Assembly: GCA_902766595.1 (NCBI GenBank)
Contig: CACXEJ010000024.1
Coordinates: 1-35,833, forward strand
DNA: 35,833 nt
Reading direction: 5' to 3'
From: Ruminococcus flavefaciens
GTDB lineage: Bacteria > Bacillota > Clostridia > Oscillospirales > Ruminococcaceae
This document shows, one piece after another, positions 10,049-18,122 of this stretch. Every line of letters starts with the position of its first letter. Position 1 is the first letter of the stretch. The notes under the pieces are model-generated. The model was given only the letters and a program-made list of their open reading frames with translations. It ran no database searches and had not been told where the DNA came from. The position numbers and the translations under genes were made by a program.

Positions 10049-10077
10049 TTGACAATAATGTCATAATATGATAGAAT
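10049..10077 (+). promoter_or_regulatory. Promoter of the polyamine operon
   Basis: TTGACA (10049-10054), 17 nt, TAGAAT (10072-10077), starting 4 nt after the stop codon of the YfhO gene. Predicted transcription start near 10084, leaving a leader of about 250 nt before speD. Confidence 0.85.
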
Positions 10078-10083
10078 AAGTAC

Positions 10084-10337
10084 AGTAAAATTGCTTCGGT
10101 TTCAAAGCAAGACCGCCGGTATTCCGGCTGGCAACTTCTGTTGCCTTATTGATTCGGCTGTGCGCCGATATGTTTTTATAAGTTTTCATCAGCTTGTGAA
10201 AGGTCAATAAGAGTAGTAAAAGGTGGAGTTATCTTGCTTATATAGACTCTGAAACCAAGGTCAATCTGTGCAGTTGACATATGATCGCATAACACGCGCG
10301 GCTGATAAAGCTGTGCGTGTTTTTTTGAGGTGTGTAT
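10084..10337 (+). promoter_or_regulatory. Structured 5' leader of speD, candidate riboswitch or attenuator
   Basis: The leader is packed with complementary segments. Hairpins: TTGCTT/AAGCAA (10091-10096 with 10105-10110); GCCGG/CCGGC (10115-10119 with 10124-10128); GGCAAC-TTCT-GTTGCC (10130-10145). A perfect 8-bp long-range stem CTTATTGA/TCAATAAG (10145-10152 with 10204-10211) encloses two hairpins, TCGGC/GCCGA (10154-10158 with 10164-10168) and TTTCA/TGAAA, forming a three-way junction. The segment 10154-10164 can instead pair over 11 bp (three G-U) with 10295-10305, which is the 5' arm of the terminator before speD. AAGGTCAAT occurs twice (10200-10208 and 10257-10265). I do not recognise the fold as SAM-I, lysine or THF class. 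Because the genes make polyamines from arginine and S-adenosylmethionine, a ligand from that pathway is the natural guess. Confidence 0.7.
10291..10326 (+). terminator. Intrinsic terminator (attenuator) abutting the speD ribosome site
   Basis: A 12-13 bp stem (10291-10303 with 10309-10321, two G-U pairs), loop GATAA, followed by a T-run to 10326. The speD ribosome site GAGGTG begins at 10327, immediately after. A terminator inside the operon's own leader, after the only promoter I can see, means expression must depend on antitermination. Confidence 0.85.
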
Positions 10338-11120
10338 ATGGAAAATAAACTTAAGCTCTATGGCTTCAATAATCTTACAAAATCTCTGAGCTTCAATATC
10401 TACGACGTCTGTTACGCCAAGACTGCAAAGGCTCAGCAGGAATATATAGCGTATGTTGACGAGCAGTATAATTCCGAGCGAATTACGGATATTATGACTC
10501 ACCTTACGGAAATGATAGGCGCTCAGGTGCTCAGTGTCTCACGTCAGGACTACGATCCGCAGGGAGCTTCCGCGACCTTCCTGATCGCTGACGATACTAT
10601 GATACCTGCCGGCGGCAACGAGATAGTCGCTCATCTCGACAAGAGCCACGTCACAGTCCATACCTACCCGGAATTCCACCCGGATACCAGCATTGCCACA
10701 TTCCGCGTGGACATCGACGTTGCAACCTGCGGAAAGATCACTCCGCTCACGGCTCTCGATTACCTCATCGGCAGCTTTGACTCCGACATCATCACTATGG
10801 ACTACCGCGTAAGAGGCTTCACCCGAAACCTCGACGGCGAAAAGCTCTTCATAGACCACGATATAACTTCGATACAGGACTATATCGACGATGCGACTCT
10901 GCTCCGCTATGATGCTGTGGACATAAACGTATATCAGGCGAATATGTTCCACACAAAAATGCTCATCAAGGAGCTTGACCTTCAGAATTACCTCTTCAAC
11001 ACAGATGTGAACGAGCTCCCTCCCCAGCGCAGACTGGAGATAACAACGGCTCTGAAGAGAGAGATGATAGAAATTTTCAGCGGAAGGAATGTTTACGGAA
11101 ATGGCTCTTTCACAGGTTGA
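10338..11120 (+). CDS. speD: S-adenosylmethionine decarboxylase proenzyme (E. coli type)
   Basis: A 260-residue proenzyme that self-cleaves to form its pyruvoyl cofactor and decarboxylates S-adenosylmethionine to the aminopropyl donor. The cleavage motif [12 protein letters not shown] is at residues 101-112, cleavage expected before S103. Length and motif match the longer class 1A SpeD of E. coli rather than the short Bacillus or Thermotoga form. I start at the ATG at 10338, 5 nt after GAGGTG; an in-frame GTG two codons upstream overlaps the ribosome site and is unlikely. The stop lies 20 bases inside speA, suggesting coupling. Confidence 0.95.
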
Positions 11121-12552
11121 CGCTCCGATATACGAAGCGCTGCGGAAATTCCGCCGTATGAGGGTAGTGCCCTTCGACGTTCCCGGACACAAGAGGGGAC
11201 GCGGCAATATGGAGCTCACGGAGTTCCTCGGCGAGGACTGTATGAACGTCGATGTGAATTCGATGAAGCCCCTTGACAATCTCTGCCACCCGGTGTCGGT
11301 AATCAGGGACGCGGAGGATCTTGCAGCACAGGCTTTCGGTGCGGCAAACGCTTTCTTTATGGTCGGCGGAACGACATCTGCCGTCCAGAGTATGATAATG
11401 TACGCCTGCAAGGAGGGCGACAAGATCATTATGCCGCGAAACGTTCACAGGAGCGCTATCAACGCTATGATACTCACCGGCGCTGTACCGGTATACGTCG
11501 ATCCCGATGTGAACCACCAGCTCGGTATCGCACTGGGTATGTCTGTATCGCAGGTCGAGAAGGCTATCGAGGAAAATCCCGACGCGAAGGCAGTTCTTGT
11601 GAACAACCCCACATATTACGGCGTATGTTCGGATCTCAGACGCATAACCGAGCTCGCACATTCTCACGGTATGCTGGTGCTTGCTGACGAGGCTCACGGT
11701 ACGCATTTCTATTTCGGAGACGGCTTTCCGGTGCCGGCAATGGCTGCCGGAGCTGACATATCCTCGGCAAGTATGCACAAGTCCGGCGGAAGCCTCACAC
11801 AGAGCTCCTTCCTGCTTATGGGAAAGGACATAAACGCAGATTATATGCGGCAGATAGTCAATCTCACCCAGACCACGAGCGCTTCTTATCTGCTGCTCTC
11901 GAGTCTGGACATCTCACGCAAGAGACTTGCTCTCAGCGGCAGGGAGATATTTGCAAAAACAGTTGAAATGGCTCAGTACGCCCGCGAGGAGATAAACTCG
12001 ATCGGCGGTTATTACGCTTTTTCAAGCGAACTCATCAACGGCGACAGCATATATGATTTCGATGTGTCTAAGCTCTCAGTACACACTCTGCCGATAGGAC
12101 TCGCCGGAATTGAGGTCTATGACCTACTCAGGGACGAGTACGACATACAGATAGAGTTCGGTGACATCGGCAATATCCTCGCTTACGTCTCCGTAGGCGA
12201 CAGAACGCGCGACATCGAACGCCTTATCAGTGCGATGTCTGAGATAAAGAGACGCTTCGGCAAGTCCGGAACAGGTATGCTTACGCAGGAGTACATCAAT
12301 CCGGTCGTTGCAGAACCGCCGCGCAAGGCTTTCTATGCGAAGAAGCGTTCGCTGACGCTCGATGAAGCTGCCGGCAACGTATGTACGGAATTTGTTATGT
12401 GCTATCCGCCGGGAATACCGATACTCGCTCCCGGAGAGCTGATAACTCCGGAGATAATCGAGTATATAAAGTATGCAAAGGAAAAGGGCTGTCAGATGAC
12501 AGGCACAGAGGATATAAACATCGAACGTCTCAACGTCCTCGCAGAGGACTGA
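11101..12552 (+). CDS. speA: Arginine decarboxylase, Orn/Lys/Arg fold I family
   Basis: A PLP-dependent decarboxylase of 483 residues from the ATG at 11101. The PLP lysine is K227 in SASMHKSGG; the Orn/Lys/Arg decarboxylase N-terminal pattern FDVPGHKRG lies at 25-33, and the cofactor pocket aspartate is in ADEAHG near 195-200. Size and architecture match the Bacillus SpeA/YaaO type, which produces agmatine from arginine. Operon context with agmatinase supports arginine rather than lysine as substrate. An alternative ATG at 11089 sits directly on the GGAAGGA ribosome site (11082-11088), which leaves no spacing, so 11101 is preferred although its spacing is long (12 nt). The 5' end overlaps speD. 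Confidence 0.92.
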
Positions 12553-12606
12553 GACACGGGGAATATTGGGTAAACTGACGTATGGGGAATTCAAGGAGGT
12601 TTACTT

Positions 12607-13071
12607 ATGAATATGAAAAAAGCCGGAAGAAAAATGAGTATGCTTATGGGACTTACAATGAGCTTCACTATGTCCCTGATAGGTAATATCACCTCGGGAC
12701 ACTTTACTCCCGTCGGATTTATTCTGAGTTTTATCATCAGTTCGATAATAAGTCTTATCATCGGATTTTTTGTGCCGGTCGGACCGCTATCACACGCTGC
12801 AAGTGAAAAGTGCGGACTTGAAAAGGGCAGCATTGGTGCAAGATGTATCGAAAGCCTTGTTGCGGACGTCATCTTCACACCTGTTATGACCCTCGCGATG
12901 ATAACTTTTGCTTACAATATGTCTAAAAAGCACGGCGAGCCTATGAAGTTCGTTCCGGCGTTTTTAAGCTCGCTCGGTATCGGACTCATCGTGTGTTTCC
13001 TGCTGGCATTTCTTCTTACGCCCGTCTACCTGAAGATAGCTATGAAGGACGTTGACGGCGGAGAACAGTGA
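12607..13071 (+). CDS. Small DUF2798-like membrane protein in the polyamine operon
   Basis: A 154-residue protein with about four hydrophobic segments (near residues 12-30, 35-58, 85-105 and 118-142). The two halves look like repeats of the same unit: a Met/Ser-rich segment (LTMSFTMSLIGN; MTLAMITFAYNMS) followed by a long hydrophobic helix ending in a Pro (FFVPVGPLS; FLLTPVYLK). That pattern resembles DUF2798 proteins. Function unknown. Its position between speA and speE suggests a membrane role related to polyamines, such as transport or sensing, but this is inference from location only. It has a strong AAGGAGG ribosome site. Confidence 0.72.
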   Translation: MNMKKAGRKMSMLMGLTMSFTMSLIGNITSGHFTPVGFILSFIISSIISLIIGFFVPVGPLSHAASEKCGLEKGSIGARCIESLVADVIFTPVMTLAMITFAYNMSKKHGEPMKFVPAFLSSLGIGLIVCFLLAFLLTPVYLKIAMKDVDGGEQ

Positions 13072-13105
13072 ACCGCAGAGCGGTACTGAAGAACGGAGGT
13101 AGTCT

Positions 13106-13957
13106 ATGGAACTATGGTTTACGGAGCGGCATACTCCGAATGTTAAATTCTCGATAAAGGTGGATCACCAGCTTTACAGCGGAAACAGTGAGTTTCAGCG
13201 TATAGACGTGTTTGACTCGAAGGAGTTCGGACGTTTTCTAACGCTCGACGGCTATATGATGCTTACGGAGAAGGACGAGTTCATTTACCACGAAATGATA
13301 ACCCACGTTCCTATGGCTGTTCACCCGAACCCGAAAAATATCCTCGTTATCGGCGCAGGCGACGGAGGAGTCGTGAGGGAGCTCACAAGGTACTCTTCTG
13401 TTGAAAACATCGACCTCGTTGAGATTGACGAGCTCGTTGTGGAGGTCAGCAAGCAGTATCTCCCGACAACAGCCTGCCGCTTTGACGATCCGAGGGTACA
13501 CGTTTACTATGAGGACGGCGTTAAGTTCATACGCCGCTGCACAGACCAGTACGATGTTATAATCGTTGACTCGACCGATCCCTTCGGACCGGGCGAGGGA
13601 CTTTTTACCAAGGAATTCTACGGAAGCTGCTTCAAGGCTTTGCACGACGACGGCATTATGGTGAACCAGCACGAGAGCCCGTTCTACGCTGAGGACGCGG
13701 CAGCGATGCAGCGTTCCCACAAGCGTATCGTGGAGAGCTTCCCGATAAGCAAGGTCTATCAGGCACATATCCCGACCTATCCCTCCGGACACTGGCTCTT
13801 CGGCTTTGCTTCAAAGAAGTACCACCCGACAGCCGACTACAACGGCACACAGTGGAGTATGCTCGGGCTGAAAACGCGCTACTACAATCCGCGCCTGCAC
13901 GTCGGGGCGTTTGCACTTCCAAATTATGTTGAGGAGCTTCTGAAAGATGTTGAATAA
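13106..13957 (+). CDS. speE: Spermidine synthase (aminopropyltransferase)
   Basis: A 283-residue class I methyltransferase-fold aminopropyltransferase. The nucleoside-binding motif is GAGDGGVVRE near residues 83-92. The acidic residues that bind decarboxylated S-adenosylmethionine and the amine include VEIDE near 106-110 and the catalytic DSTDPFGPGEGLF region near 151-163. The N-terminal beta-strand domain is present (LWFTERHTPNVKFS). It would move an aminopropyl group to putrescine to give spermidine; SpeE enzymes in agmatine-forming operons can alternatively use agmatine, and I cannot tell which from sequence. The 3' end overlaps speB by 11 nt. Confidence 0.95.
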   Translation: MELWFTERHTPNVKFSIKVDHQLYSGNSEFQRIDVFDSKEFGRFLTLDGYMMLTEKDEFIYHEMITHVPMAVHPNPKNILVIGAGDGGVVRELTRYSSVENIDLVEIDELVVEVSKQYLPTTACRFDDPRVHVYYEDGVKFIRRCTDQYDVIIVDSTDPFGPGEGLFTKEFYGSCFKALHDDGIMVNQHESPFYAEDAAAMQRSHKRIVESFPISKVYQAHIPTYPSGHWLFGFASKKYHPTADYNGTQWSMLGLKTRYYNPRLHVGAFALPNYVEELLKDVE

Positions 13958-14798
13958 GAATGTACAGACCTTTATCGCCTGCGACAGTGAGTATGAAGAT
14001 GCGAAGATAGTTCTCTTCGGCGCAGGCTTTGACGGGACGACCAGCTTCCGCCCGGGAACGCGCTTCGGTCCGACTGCAATAAGAAATGAGAGCTTCGGCA
14101 TAGAGACTTACAGTCCGTATCAGGAAAAGGATATGCTCGACTACTCGTATTTTGACAGCGGCGATCTTGAGCTGCCCTTCGGCAGCACGAACCGCTCTGT
14201 TGCTGACATAGCAATGCGTTCGGATATGATACTCTCTGACGGCAAGGTACCGTTTATGATAGGCGGCGAACACCTTGTGACGCTCGGTTCGGTAATGGCG
14301 GTCAAGGAGAAGTTTGATGATATTTACATCGTACACTTTGACGCTCACGCCGATCTCCGCGAGGACTACCTCGGACAGAAGATGTCCCACGCCTGCGTAC
14401 TGCGCCGCTGCTGGGACATTCTCGGCGACGGACATATCTTCCAGTTCGGTATCAGGAGCGGCGACCGTGACGAGTTCCGCTTTGCCGAAGAGCATACCGA
14501 GATGCACAAGTTCAGCTTTGAGGGACTTGAGGACGTAGTTGAGAGGCTAAGGGGAAAGAACGTCTACTTCACGCTTGATCTTGATGTTCTTGATCCGTCG
14601 GTGTTCCCCGGCACGGGTACTCCCGAAGCTGGTGGAGTCACCTTTGACGAGCTGCGCAGAGCGGTGACTCTCGTTTGCAGCAGTCTGAATATAGTTGGCT
14701 GCGACGTGAATGAGCTGAGTCCGGTCTATGACCAGAGCGGAGTTTCGACGGCAGTTGCCTGCAAGATAATACGCGAAATGCTGCTTGCGATGTCATGA
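13947..14798 (+). CDS. speB: Agmatinase-family ureohydrolase
   Basis: A 283-residue manganese ureohydrolase. Metal ligands are in the canonical motifs: GGEH with H109, DAHAD with D132, H134 and D136, and LDLDVLDP with D211 and D213. It hydrolyses agmatine to putrescine and urea; if SpeE acts on agmatine, this enzyme could act on aminopropylagmatine instead, giving spermidine directly. It overlaps speE by 11 nt, so the two are probably translated together. Normal length for the family. Confidence 0.93.
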   Translation: MLNKNVQTFIACDSEYEDAKIVLFGAGFDGTTSFRPGTRFGPTAIRNESFGIETYSPYQEKDMLDYSYFDSGDLELPFGSTNRSVADIAMRSDMILSDGKVPFMIGGEHLVTLGSVMAVKEKFDDIYIVHFDAHADLREDYLGQKMSHACVLRRCWDILGDGHIFQFGIRSGDRDEFRFAEEHTEMHKFSFEGLEDVVERLRGKNVYFTLDLDVLDPSVFPGTGTPEAGGVTFDELRRAVTLVCSSLNIVGCDVNELSPVYDQSGVSTAVACKIIREMLLAMS

Positions 14799-14822
14799 TG
14801 TGACTGATAAGCAGGAAAATTA

Positions 14823-15383
14823 ATGGGGGAAATAATGGGGAAAATATTAAAAAACAGACGGGAGAAAACTCTGTTTATCGCAGCTCTTGTAATTGCGCTC
14901 GTTACAGCTATACTGGCTGGTGCAAACGCCTCGCTCGGTAAGGACTGGGTGAACAAGGACTATGAGGACTACAGAATGGAGCCCGACAGCTATACAGTCG
15001 CGGAGGTCACGATAAAGGGCTTCAAAACGCTTAACGGAAGTAATTATGAACCGTTGACAATACTGGATTTTTATCGTGTATGCACAGTTGATGTGACCTT
15101 TGCCGGCGGTCAGACTATGGAGTTCTATATTCCGCGCAGCTCTAATGACAAGGTCGGCGATAAGGTAAAGGTCGCTTACTTGAAGAATTGGGACACCAAT
15201 TACGATAGTATTATGAAAAGCTCGGATGTTGATGAGGGCGGTACACTTGAAGCTGCCCGCACAGTTGAAGTAAAAGACGGTATGTATGCACGGCTTTTCG
15301 GACTGATCGCAACTGCCTCGGTAGTTTTTGCCGCTGCTGTACTGATGATATGCTATAAGAAAAAAGATGCTTATGAATTCTAA
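14823..15383 (+). CDS. Two-pass membrane protein, DUF3592-like
   Basis: A protein of 186 residues (182 if the second ATG at 14835 is used; both have purine-rich ribosome sites). It has a hydrophobic segment near residues 16-35, an extracytoplasmic beta-rich segment near 55-150, and a second membrane segment near 158-178 followed by basic YKKKDAY. The middle pattern (YRVCTVDVTFAGGQTMEFYIPRSSNDKVGDKVKVAYLK, broken here as strands with a GDKVKVAY turn) resembles DUF3592 proteins. Function unknown. It lies between speB and the carboxynorspermidine dehydrogenase in the same orientation with short gaps, so it is probably part of the operon. Confidence 0.65.
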   Translation: MGEIMGKILKNRREKTLFIAALVIALVTAILAGANASLGKDWVNKDYEDYRMEPDSYTVAEVTIKGFKTLNGSNYEPLTILDFYRVCTVDVTFAGGQTMEFYIPRSSNDKVGDKVKVAYLKNWDTNYDSIMKSSDVDEGGTLEAARTVEVKDGMYARLFGLIATASVVFAAAVLMICYKKKDAYEF

Positions 15384-15397
15384 GGAGGTATAAATCA

Positions 15398-16600
15398 ATG
15401 GGAAAATGTATGATAATCGGCTGCGGAGGAGTTGCTTCCGTTGCTATCCACAAGTGCTGTCAGAACAGCGAGGTCTTTGAGGGAATTATGATCGCAAGCC
15501 GCACAAAGTCAAAGTGCGACGCGCTCAAGGAGAAGCTCCAGCCCACTACAAAGACAGTCATCGAGACTGCTCAGGTGAACGCTGATAACGTTGACGAGCT
15601 CGTAGCACTCATCAACAGCTACAAGCCGGACGTCGTTCTCAACCTTGCGCTCCCTTATCAGGATCTCACCATAATGGACGCCTGTCTCGCTACAAAGACT
15701 CACTATGTGGATACTGCAAACTACGAGCCGCTTGATACAGCAAAGTTTGAGTACAAGTGGCAGTGGGCATACCGCGAGAGATTTGAAAAGGCTGGCATAA
15801 CAGCTCTTCTCGGAAGCGGCTTTGATCCCGGAGTTACCGGCGTTTTCTCAGCTTACGCAATGAAGCACCAGTTTGATGAGATCAACTACATCGACATTCT
15901 CGACTGCAACGGCGGCGATCACGGCTATCCGTTCGCAACAAACTTCAACCCCGAGATAAATATCCGTGAGGTATCCGCAAAGGGCAGCTACATCGAGGAC
16001 GGCAAGTGGGTAGAGACCGAGCCTATGGAGATCAAGAGAGTCTACAACTTCAAGGGCGTAGGCGAGAAGGATATGTACCTTCTTCACCACGAGGAGCTCG
16101 AGTCACTCGCACTCAACATCAAGGGCATCAAGCGTATCCGTTTCTTCATGACATTCGGTCAGAGCTACCTCACACATCTCAAGTGTCTCGAAAATGTAGG
16201 TATGACATCTATCGAGCCCATTATGTACGAGGGCAGGGAGATAGTACCGCTCCAGTTCCTCAAGGCAGTTCTTCCTGATCCTGCATCACTTGGCCCGAGA
16301 ACAGTCGGCAAGACCAACATCGGCTGTATCTTCCGCGGTAAGAAGGACGGCAAGGATAAGAACTACTACCTCTACAACATCTGCGATCATCAGGAGTGCT
16401 ACAAGGAGGTTGGTTCACAGGCTATCTCCTACACAACAGGCGTACCTGCAATGATCGGTGCAATGATGATAATGACCGGCACATGGAAAAAGGCTGGTGT
16501 TTACAACATCGAGGAATTTGATCCCGATCCGTTTATGGAAGCTCTTAACAAGTGGGGACTTCCGTGGGAAGAGGACTTCAATCCCACACTCGTCGACTGA
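15398..16600 (+). CDS. Carboxynorspermidine / carboxyspermidine dehydrogenase (saccharopine dehydrogenase family)
   Basis: A 400-residue NADPH-dependent reductase. The Rossmann start is MIIGCGGVASVAIHKC at residues 5-20. LLGSGFDPGVTGVFSAYA and the GGDHGYPFATNFNPEIN region match the family usually called LYS1-like or CASDH. CASDH condenses L-aspartate semialdehyde with putrescine or diaminopropane and reduces the imine to carboxyspermidine or carboxynorspermidine, the substrate of NspC. Both halves of the pathway are in this operon. A strong AAGGAGG ribosome site lies at 15383-15389, overlapping the end of the preceding gene. Codon use is a little more biased than in its neighbours, which may mean higher expression. 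Confidence 0.93.
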   Translation: MGKCMIIGCGGVASVAIHKCCQNSEVFEGIMIASRTKSKCDALKEKLQPTTKTVIETAQVNADNVDELVALINSYKPDVVLNLALPYQDLTIMDACLATKTHYVDTANYEPLDTAKFEYKWQWAYRERFEKAGITALLGSGFDPGVTGVFSAYAMKHQFDEINYIDILDCNGGDHGYPFATNFNPEINIREVSAKGSYIEDGKWVETEPMEIKRVYNFKGVGEKDMYLLHHEELESLALNIKGIKRIRFFMTFGQSYLTHLKCLENVGMTSIEPIMYEGREIVPLQFLKAVLPDPASLGPRTVGKTNIGCIFRGKKDGKDKNYYLYNICDHQECYKEVGSQAISYTTGVPAMIGAMMIMTGTWKKAGVYNIEEFDPDPFMEALNKWGLPWEEDFNPTLVD

Positions 16601-16671
16601 TAATAATGTTTCTAACCGAAGGCGGTCTTTGGCTGCCTGCGGAAATAGTATAAAAAGGAATGGTGAATAAA

Positions 16672-16983
16672 ATGCTCATTACAACAACAGATTACATCGC
16701 AGGAAAAACACTTGAGATCATCGGAATGGCTGAGGGTGCAACGGTACAGACAAAGAATTTCGGCAGAGATTTTATGGCAGGTCTGAAGAACCTCGTGGGC
16801 GGCGAGCTCAAGGGCTACACTGAAATGATGAACGAAGCCCGCAGTATCGCAAAGCAGAGAATGATCGCTCAGGCTCAGAGCATGGGTGCCGATGCTGTTG
16901 TTGGTTTCAGGTACGTTTCTTCAGAGGTCGCTCAGTCAGCTGCTGAGGTCGTTGCTTACGGCACAGCTGTAAAGTTTGTCTGA
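16672..16983 (+). CDS. YbjQ / UPF0145 family protein
   Basis: A protein of 103 residues from the ATG at 16672. I prefer this start because GGTGA sits 5 nt before it and MLITTTDYIAGK matches the usual family N-terminus; an ATG at 16660 directly follows AAGGA with no spacing. The conserved glycine and alanine patterns (GRDFMAGLKNLVGGELKGY and AQSMGADAVVGFRY) identify the YbjQ/UPF0145 family, small homopentameric proteins of unknown role, once annotated as heavy-metal binding. It sits between CASDH and nspC, and its stop overlaps the nspC start by one base. A link to polyamine metabolism is only suggested by position. Confidence 0.85.
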   Translation: MLITTTDYIAGKTLEIIGMAEGATVQTKNFGRDFMAGLKNLVGGELKGYTEMMNEARSIAKQRMIAQAQSMGADAVVGFRYVSSEVAQSAAEVVAYGTAVKFV

Positions 16984-18122
16984 TGAACGGGAAAAGAGAT
17001 ATACTCAGCGGGCTCCCGACGCCCTGCTATGTCATTGACGAGGCGCGTCTGAGAGCAAATCTTGAGATACTGCGCGGAGTTCAGGAGCGCACCGGTGCAA
17101 AGATACTCCTTGCGCAGAAGGCGTTTTCGTGCTATCACCTCTACCCGATGATAGGCGAGTACCTCGCCGGAACAGCTTGCAGCGGTCTTTACGAAGCGAA
17201 GCTCGGTGCTGAGGAAATGGGAAAGGAAAACCACGTTTTCTCGGCAGCTTACCGCGAGAGTGAGATAGACGAGATAATTTCCTGCTGTGGACATATCATC
17301 TTCAACTCCTTCACGCAGCTCAATAAGTACCGAGACCGCGTACTTGCTGCCGGAAAGAAGATAGGTCTGCGCATAAATCCGGAGTTTTCAACTCAGGAGG
17401 GACACGATATCTATGATCCCTGCTCACCTAAGTCAAGGCTCGGCATAACGGAGAAAAACTTCCGCAGAGATGATCTGCGCGGCGTTACCGGACTGCACTT
17501 CCATACGCTCTGCGAACAGAATTCCGACGACCTCGAAAAAACTCTTGCGGCAGTCGAGGAGAAGTTTGGTGATATTCTTGCTGATATGGAGTGGGTGAAC
17601 TTCGGCGGCGGTCATCACATAACCCGTGCAGATTACGACATACCGCGCCTTGAACGCTGTATCCGACGTATGCAGGAGAAGTACGGGCTGGAGGTCTACC
17701 TCGAACCCGGCGAAGCGATAGCGCTCAATGCCGGCTATCTCGTAACTGAGGTCCTCGACCTCATAGAGAACGATATGCCGATTGCGATACTTGATACCTC
17801 TGCTGCCTGCCATATGCCGGACGTGCTTGAAATGCCCTATCGTCCGCCGCTTATGGACTCCGGCGAGAACGGCGAAAAGCCTTATTCCTACCGACTCGGC
17901 TCGCAGACCTGTCTTGCCGGAGATGCGATAGGGGAGTATTCCTTCGATGAGCCGCTGAAAGTCGGTGACAAGCTGATATTCGGTGATATGGCTATATATT
18001 CAATGGTCAAGAACAATACCTTCAACGGTATGCCGCTGCCGGCGATAATACTGCTGAGGGAGGACGGGAGCGTCACAGAGCTGAGAAAATTCGGCTATGA
18101 GGACTTCCGCAGCAGACTGTGA
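16983..18122 (+). CDS. nspC: Carboxynorspermidine / carboxyspermidine decarboxylase
   Basis: A 379-residue alanine-racemase-fold, PLP-dependent decarboxylase. The PLP lysine is K46 in LAQKAFSC. The glycine-rich phosphate loop NFGGGHH lies near 203-209, EPGEA near 240-244, and the C-terminal domain has the NspC-type pattern DTSAACHMPDVLEMPYRPP (near 266-284) and the FGDMAIYSMVKNNTFNG end. It removes CO2 from carboxyspermidine or carboxynorspermidine to finish spermidine or norspermidine synthesis. It is coupled to the preceding ybjQ-like gene by a TGATG overlap and is the last gene before the operon terminator. Confidence 0.94.
   Translation: MNGKRDILSGLPTPCYVIDEARLRANLEILRGVQERTGAKILLAQKAFSCYHLYPMIGEYLAGTACSGLYEAKLGAEEMGKENHVFSAAYRESEIDEIISCCGHIIFNSFTQLNKYRDRVLAAGKKIGLRINPEFSTQEGHDIYDPCSPKSRLGITEKNFRRDDLRGVTGLHFHTLCEQNSDDLEKTLAAVEEKFGDILADMEWVNFGGGHHITRADYDIPRLERCIRRMQEKYGLEVYLEPGEAIALNAGYLVTEVLDLIENDMPIAILDTSAACHMPDVLEMPYRPPLMDSGENGEKPYSYRLGSQTCLAGDAIGEYSFDEPLKVGDKLIFGDMAIYSMVKNNTFNGMPLPAIILLREDGSVTELRKFGYEDFRSRL

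Follow-up and report, generated by a model that had tools for sequence, protein, structure and literature searches.

The stretch of DNA analysed, hereafter the window, comprises 35,833 nucleotides of Ruminococcus flavefaciens contig CACXEJ010000024.1. It holds a leader at approximately 10084-10337, upstream of a spermidine-making speD operon. The features of the leader and the genes behind it are presented in Table 1. Given that SpeD, SpeE and agmatinase are encoded alongside carboxyspermidine dehydrogenase and decarboxylase, the region 10338-18122 appears from its gene content to be one operon with both SAM-dependent and carboxyspermidine routes to spermidine. Two further operon genes, at 12607-13071 and 14823-15383 (154 and 186 residues, partly hydrophobic), yielded no match in NCBIfam (E ≤ 1e-10) or Pfam (E ≤ 0.001). 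The TTGACA-17-TAGAAT match ahead of the leader resembles the promoter consensus.

Table 1. Features of the leader and of the polyamine operon in the window.
Feature	Coordinates	Strand	Basis
Promoter-like TTGACA, 17 nt, TAGAAT	10049..10077	+	Read from sequence
P1 5' strand, closing helix	10090..10103	+	Pairs with 10251-10265 in minimum-energy fold; own-versus-foreign strand test in relatives
Hairpin GCCGG/CCGGC	10115..10128	+	Sequence and fold; most relatives have an RF02440-like domain at the same place
Hairpin hp1, GGCAAC/GTTGCC	10130..10145	+	Each of the 6 pairs shows a two-sided change in at least one locus
P2 5' strand CTTATTGAT	10145..10153	+	Complementary to 10203-10211; cells 99.6% paired, 5 of 7 pairs never vary
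P3 hairpin TCGGC/GCCGA, 10154-10158 with 10164-10168	10154..10168	+	4 of 4 pairs covary; contains the antiterminator strand of the sequence-only reading, 10154-10164
P4 5' strand	10174..10184	+	Pairs with 10191-10201; upper P4 covaries
Conserved antiterminator strand (P4 loop and 3' strand)	10188..10198	+	11 bp with 10295-10306, -12.5 kcal/mol; only peak of sliding test; permutation test
P2 3' strand, inside near-invariant core CAATAAGAGTAGTAAAAG (10205-10222)	10203..10211	+	Alignment
P5 hairpin AGAGT/ACTCT and inner helix	10210..10250	+	Fold, alignment; outer P5 compensated in locus L184 by inspection
P1 3' strand	10251..10265	+	Minimum-energy fold; strand permutation in relatives
Intrinsic terminator, 12-13 bp then T run	10291..10327	+	5' arm 10295-10306 is the antiterminator partner
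Ribosome-site-like GAGGTG of speD	10327..10332	+	Read from sequence
speD, S-adenosylmethionine decarboxylase	10338..11120	+	TIGR03331, 396.9 bits, cut-off 255.8
speA/ldc-type Orn/Lys/Arg decarboxylase	11089..12552	+	PF01276, 249 bits; under all NCBIfam cut-offs, Pfam-only assignment
speE, spermidine synthase	13106..13957	+	NCBIfam, above cut-off
speB, agmatinase	13947..14798	+	NCBIfam, above cut-off
Carboxy(nor)spermidine dehydrogenase	15398..16600	+	NF043000, E 8.5e-122; 407 bits versus cut-off 800
nspC, carboxynorspermidine decarboxylase	16983..18122	+	TIGR01047, above cut-off

Folding of 10080-10330 surpasses that of shuffled sequences by 5.4 standard deviations (z = -5.4; 0 of 200 shuffles). 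An earlier reading of the letters alone, the sequence-only reading, had described a 12-13 bp intrinsic terminator with a T run at 10291-10326, a perfect 8-bp stem and a TCGGC/GCCGA hairpin. All three are present: the terminator ends just before GAGGTG at 10327, the stem (P2) joins CTTATTGA at 10145-10152 to its perfect complement TCAATAAG at 10204-10211, and the hairpin is P3. P2 is formed in the centroid and open in the window's plain minimum-energy fold; since the latter leaves P2 open, it was rejected as the leader's structure. Two further findings described below, the closing helix P1 and a connection to RF02440/F59 by way of relatives, were absent from the sequence-only reading.

When the leader was searched by BLAST against 297 genomes of the same family, two strongly conserved blocks (approximately 10129-10154 and 10187-10257) were found in many genera. 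The R. flavefaciens genome itself (82% complete) holds one leader copy. Scanning named species genomes with a 17-mer pattern yielded at least 119 loci, and scanning 299 phylum genomes with the Rfam model RF02440 yielded 10. After screening, 147 loci were retained among the matches listed, and 12 were set aside. Hosts of the kept loci among the matches listed include Ruminococcus flavefaciens, Gemmiger, Flavonifractor, Neglectibacter, Mediterraneibacter, Acetobacterium, Phascolarctobacterium and Bacillus. Among the loci set aside, four (L032, L063, L103 and L105) carry the genuine motif, truncated close to the end of a record, seven look like chance 17-mer matches, and one (L152), which the pattern missed, was recovered by the model as L169. 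A covariance model of the core, R1, matched in 65 of 247 genomes of the window's family (37 of 126 genera) and in 24 of 398 phylum genomes, the window being included in each case. The 52 stored loci found with R1 were chosen independently of the exact 17-mer; 28 duplicate a sequence among the 147 and 2 almost do, which leaves 22 new ones.

Up to 900 nt downstream of the 147 loci, the gene recognised first is speD in 70, speA/ldc in 41, potA in 23 and carboxyspermidine dehydrogenase (CANSDH) in 7, so that a polyamine gene comes next in 141, and none was recognised in 6. With near-duplicates removed, the corresponding counts among 138 loci are 64, 41, 22, 5 and 6. A same-strand polyamine gene also lies downstream of all 52 stored R1-found loci, including the 22 new ones. 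The PotA of locus L014 scores above its NCBIfam cut-off, and the decarboxylase of the carboxyspermidine route follows in two of the five non-redundant dehydrogenase loci. Five of the six loci without a recognised gene have at most 357 nt of DNA remaining; the sixth, L134, has a full-looking leader copy and terminator before a lipoprotein-like gene, with no polyamine gene.

The leader does not accompany every speD gene. SpeD is encoded in 101 of the 247 family genomes versus 65 with the RNA, and we therefore discarded the idea that each speD needs one. In G019, a genome of the window's genus, speD stands close after a dockerin-type-looking gene and the whole leader is absent (locus L214, G019:C32:49300-50100); this absence is a natural loss. 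Two other loci, L182 and L183, are shortened: of the leader, just the 3' core (ACTTGTGAA to GACTCTGAA) precedes speD, and no 5' strand of P2 is evident. A further copy, L052, precedes speA-speE-speB in a contig titled Salinivirgaceae, presumably Bacteroidota by name, and is either an inter-phylum transfer or a misbinned contig.

Terminator and junction go beyond chance: P2, P3 and P4 are found again across 100 of 160 loci that were aligned, with covariation overall. In this alignment, which was fitted to the structure model, the share of cells that pair is 96.3%, compared with 91.2% after shuffling. Both sides change in 24 of 41 pairs and in 168 cells (10 and 33, respectively, in shuffles), and covariation scores 0.179, versus 0.093 when shuffled and at most 0.038 with the partner strand slid. 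Covariation is seen in hp1, P3, P4b, upper P4 and the hairpin inside P5. Changes are scarce in P2 and outer P5; the 17-mer search pattern falls within this region and partly selected the invariance of the core CAATAAGAGTAGTAAAAG, of which variants exist among the model-found loci. By inspection, the divergent locus L184 presents compensated changes in both P5 and P2. The covariation that the sequence-only reading had proposed to look for in its junction is hence found for the junction helices taken together, yet P2 itself hardly varies.

The closing helix P1 lies outside the covariance model and was assessed by pairing each strand with its own and with foreign partners, in 110 of 122 usable loci after removal of near-duplicates. 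Own strands pair at -17.0 kcal/mol versus -13.8 kcal/mol for foreign ones, with the own partner ranking in the top 5% in only 24-25 of the 110 loci. Without the invariant part, the values over 81 loci are -11.9 and -9.9 kcal/mol (0 of 20,000 permutations). Alignment covariation and the P1 test together point to a conserved structured aptamer with covariation, as in riboswitches.

A lenient automated script placed a terminator ahead of the gene in 139 of the 147 loci. In a sliding test over 65 non-redundant of 122 loci, each leader was paired along its length with its own terminator 5' arm and with the arms of other loci; L024 and L142, with doubtful terminators, had been excluded beforehand. 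A single peak was obtained, 28 to 24 nt upstream of the CAATAAG core (-13.9 kcal/mol own versus -9.8 foreign, t = 9.5), which corresponds to the 3' strand of P4, 10188-10198 in the window. Off the peak, t ranges from -2.1 to 1.4. The P4 strand pairs better with own than with foreign terminators (0 of 20,000 permutations), while in the median locus 15% of foreign arms beat the own arm, and in 9 of the 65 loci, the window included, a stretch of the leader beyond P4 exceeds the P4 strand by a margin above 3 kcal/mol. The permutation tests keep shared descent, which could inflate the pairing signal; the other leader positions share the same descent without a comparable peak. Given that the antiterminator strand is the 3' side of P4, P4 and the antiterminator are mutually exclusive, and so are antiterminator and terminator, which have the 5' arm 10295-10306 in common. 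The comparison thus points to an expression platform with mutually exclusive pairings, which equilibrium folding does not favour in the window.

The disagreement concerns which strand opens. The sequence-only reading had named 10154-10164 as the antiterminator, and its 11-bp complementarity to 10295-10305 does exist, with three G-U pairs. The class could therefore be the same and the working antiterminator in R. flavefaciens be this one, opening P3 and not P4. Energetically the window prefers it: the duplex has -17.9 kcal/mol versus -12.5 for the conserved one, its probability in transcripts ending at 10306-10310 is 0.86-0.90 versus approximately 4e-7 to 1e-6, and forcing it gives -71.5 versus -66.0 kcal/mol. 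The relatives tell otherwise. At the offset of this strand t is 0.8 to 1.4, and at the place of P3 in most loci (-84 to -64, as we infer its position) -0.8 to 1.2. Among 13 relatives selected for their similarity, P3 could not be scored in 2 owing to its shortness, and in 11 its pairing with the terminator is weaker than that of the P4 strand. Moreover, 8.8% of 500 shuffled leaders hold a match as strong, and outside the P4 strand one equally strong occurs in 9 of the 65 loci, no oftener than with foreign terminators. The 11-bp match alone is not clearly more than chance. Because the 13 relatives lack it and such a share of shuffles equals it, we rate the 10154-10164 pairing as incidental or species-local, and consider it rather improbable as the working antiterminator.

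With regard to known classes, a scan of the whole window against Rfam 15 gave no family at or above its gathering score, and the leader has three weak matches only (E 1.8 to 5.5). The sequence-only reading had likewise failed to recognise the class. No SAM-family match was obtained in the window leader (E up to 10) or in 16 relatives (E up to 5). Given the lack of a match in the window, the SAM-I/spermidine variant, T-box leaders and the other Rfam classes were rejected. The spermidine riboswitch is described in the available text of Salvail et al. (2023, PMC10853860) as a SAM-I variant with 13 examples, acting as an OFF switch via a terminator. Both RNAs precede polyamine genes, and the window leader is followed by a terminator whose OFF action is proposed here; the four-stem SAM-I-like aptamer of that class (PMC10853860) sets the two apart, as far as the Rfam scan shows. 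Two other bacterial leader candidates near polyamine genes are distinguished by the Rfam scans and by their descriptions in the available text of Brewer et al. (2021, PMC8632094): potE, confined to Veillonella and environmental samples and without an obvious expression platform, and odc1, a uORF element before ornithine decarboxylase.

The only Rfam match above gathering score in the 16 relatives is RF02440 (SpF59_sRNA, or 'ldcC RNA'), which gives no match in the window. Its cut-off is exceeded in 13 relatives, 5' of the first conserved block; of the three without a match (L004, L005 and L031), L004 and L005 belong, like L003, to the window's genus. RF02440 is a 54-nt model without the leader core and matches an optional 5' domain of the relatives. 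Among 73 genomes of another order it matched in the same 7 as R1, with an overlap of a few bases; all 10 RF02440-positive genomes of the phylum draw are within R1's 24, and it also matches in Lactococcus lactis. By pattern, the RF02440-like domain is found in 101 of the 147 loci. Among the 138 loci with at least 200 nt of upstream DNA it is present in 100 and absent in 38, some of which may hold degenerate versions; both presence and absence are found in every gene class. Since RF02440 and R1 co-occur and adjoin, Rfam seems, as far as these matches go, to hold a small end-piece of the leader RNA, catalogued as an unexplained sRNA.

To judge by its name, RF02440 derives from pneumococcal F59, one of whose neighbours, SP0916, we take to be a lysine decarboxylase gene. 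In the available texts, F59 is located between SP0915 and SP0916 (PMC3395615) and is listed as the pneumococcal sRNA F59/srn235/SN20/Spd_sr49 (PMC3395615, PMC4387999, PMC12323649). The table of the 2015 review, as available, gives no mechanism for it (PMC4387999), and a 2025 study includes it, at 869478-869804, in its putative sRNAs (PMC12323649). Polyamine terms found no match in PMC11109978. Beyond the pneumococcal sRNA lists, no paper on the leader RNA was found in the literature searched; most subscription journals and all bioRxiv preprints lie outside its coverage, and a description elsewhere is possible.

Taken together, the leader is probably a member of a large, apparently undescribed class of cis-regulatory RNA in Bacillota: a metabolite-sensing transcription attenuator, a riboswitch-type OFF switch, whose likeliest ligand would be spermidine or a related polyamine. 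The sequence comparison supports a conserved structure, the gene association, the terminator, and a pairing of P4 strand and terminator that changes in step; this agrees with the sequence-only reading, which saw in the leader a structured RNA tied to polyamine genes, its terminator and antiterminator excluding each other. From it we infer direct ligand binding, the ligand's identity, the direction of the switch and the absence of a protein partner. Plenty of ligand, most probably spermidine or an end product related to it, would keep the aptamer stable, with P1 closing the core of P2, P3, P4 and P5. P4 would then hold 10188-10198, the terminator at 10291-10327 would form, and transcription would stop before speD. 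When the ligand is scarce, 10188-10198 would pair with 10295-10306 and the operon would be transcribed. Product repression is suggested because biosynthetic and uptake genes sit behind the terminator. The ligand candidates of the sequence-only reading included SAM, which seems disfavoured because 7 of the 147 copies precede carboxyspermidine dehydrogenase, which belongs to a SAM-independent route. Spermidine or a close relative appears preferable, given that the dehydrogenase and potA targets share polyamines, not SAM.

Other readers of the leader are conceivable. Instead of a directly binding small molecule, an RNA-binding antiterminator or terminator protein might act on it; the near-invariant, single-stranded-looking core kept in the shortened L182 and L183 is what a protein site could look like. 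Nevertheless, large conserved multi-helix folds are typical of metabolite aptamers, which the leader resembles in its size and its covarying multi-helix fold, and we hold a protein reader to be unlikely. That the RNA acts in trans, as the label of its pneumococcal relative among the sRNAs of the available lists would have it (PMC3395615, PMC4387999, PMC12323649), is very improbable: the relatives lie directly before polyamine genes, with an intervening terminator in 139 of 147. Terminated leaders readily appear as sRNAs. Control by a leader peptide or ribosome stalling has a precedent in the uORF control of polyamine genes in other bacteria (odc1 motif, in the available text of PMC8632094), but conservation here resides in RNA pairing, which makes such an attenuator hardly credible.

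Returning to the metabolite-sensing attenuator, we lean, with less assurance than for the leader's class membership, towards the broader reading that it represents a new, widespread class of riboswitch which recognises spermidine (or a different polyamine) and has no relation to SAM-I. The aptamer of this class would be modular, its optional first domain long catalogued as a pneumococcal sRNA, and the class would be a main polyamine riboswitch in Bacillota. Polyamines occur in abundance and readily bind RNA. The single validated polyamine riboswitch found in the literature searched is rare, with 13 examples in the available text (PMC10853860). With a widespread RNA ahead of genes for polyamine synthesis and uptake, polyamine sensing in Bacillota would become directly testable, and a role in cis would suggest itself for F59, the unexplained RNA of pneumococci. 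Such an RNA would also offer a structural problem, namely how a very strongly conserved RNA forms a selective pocket for a flexible polycation.
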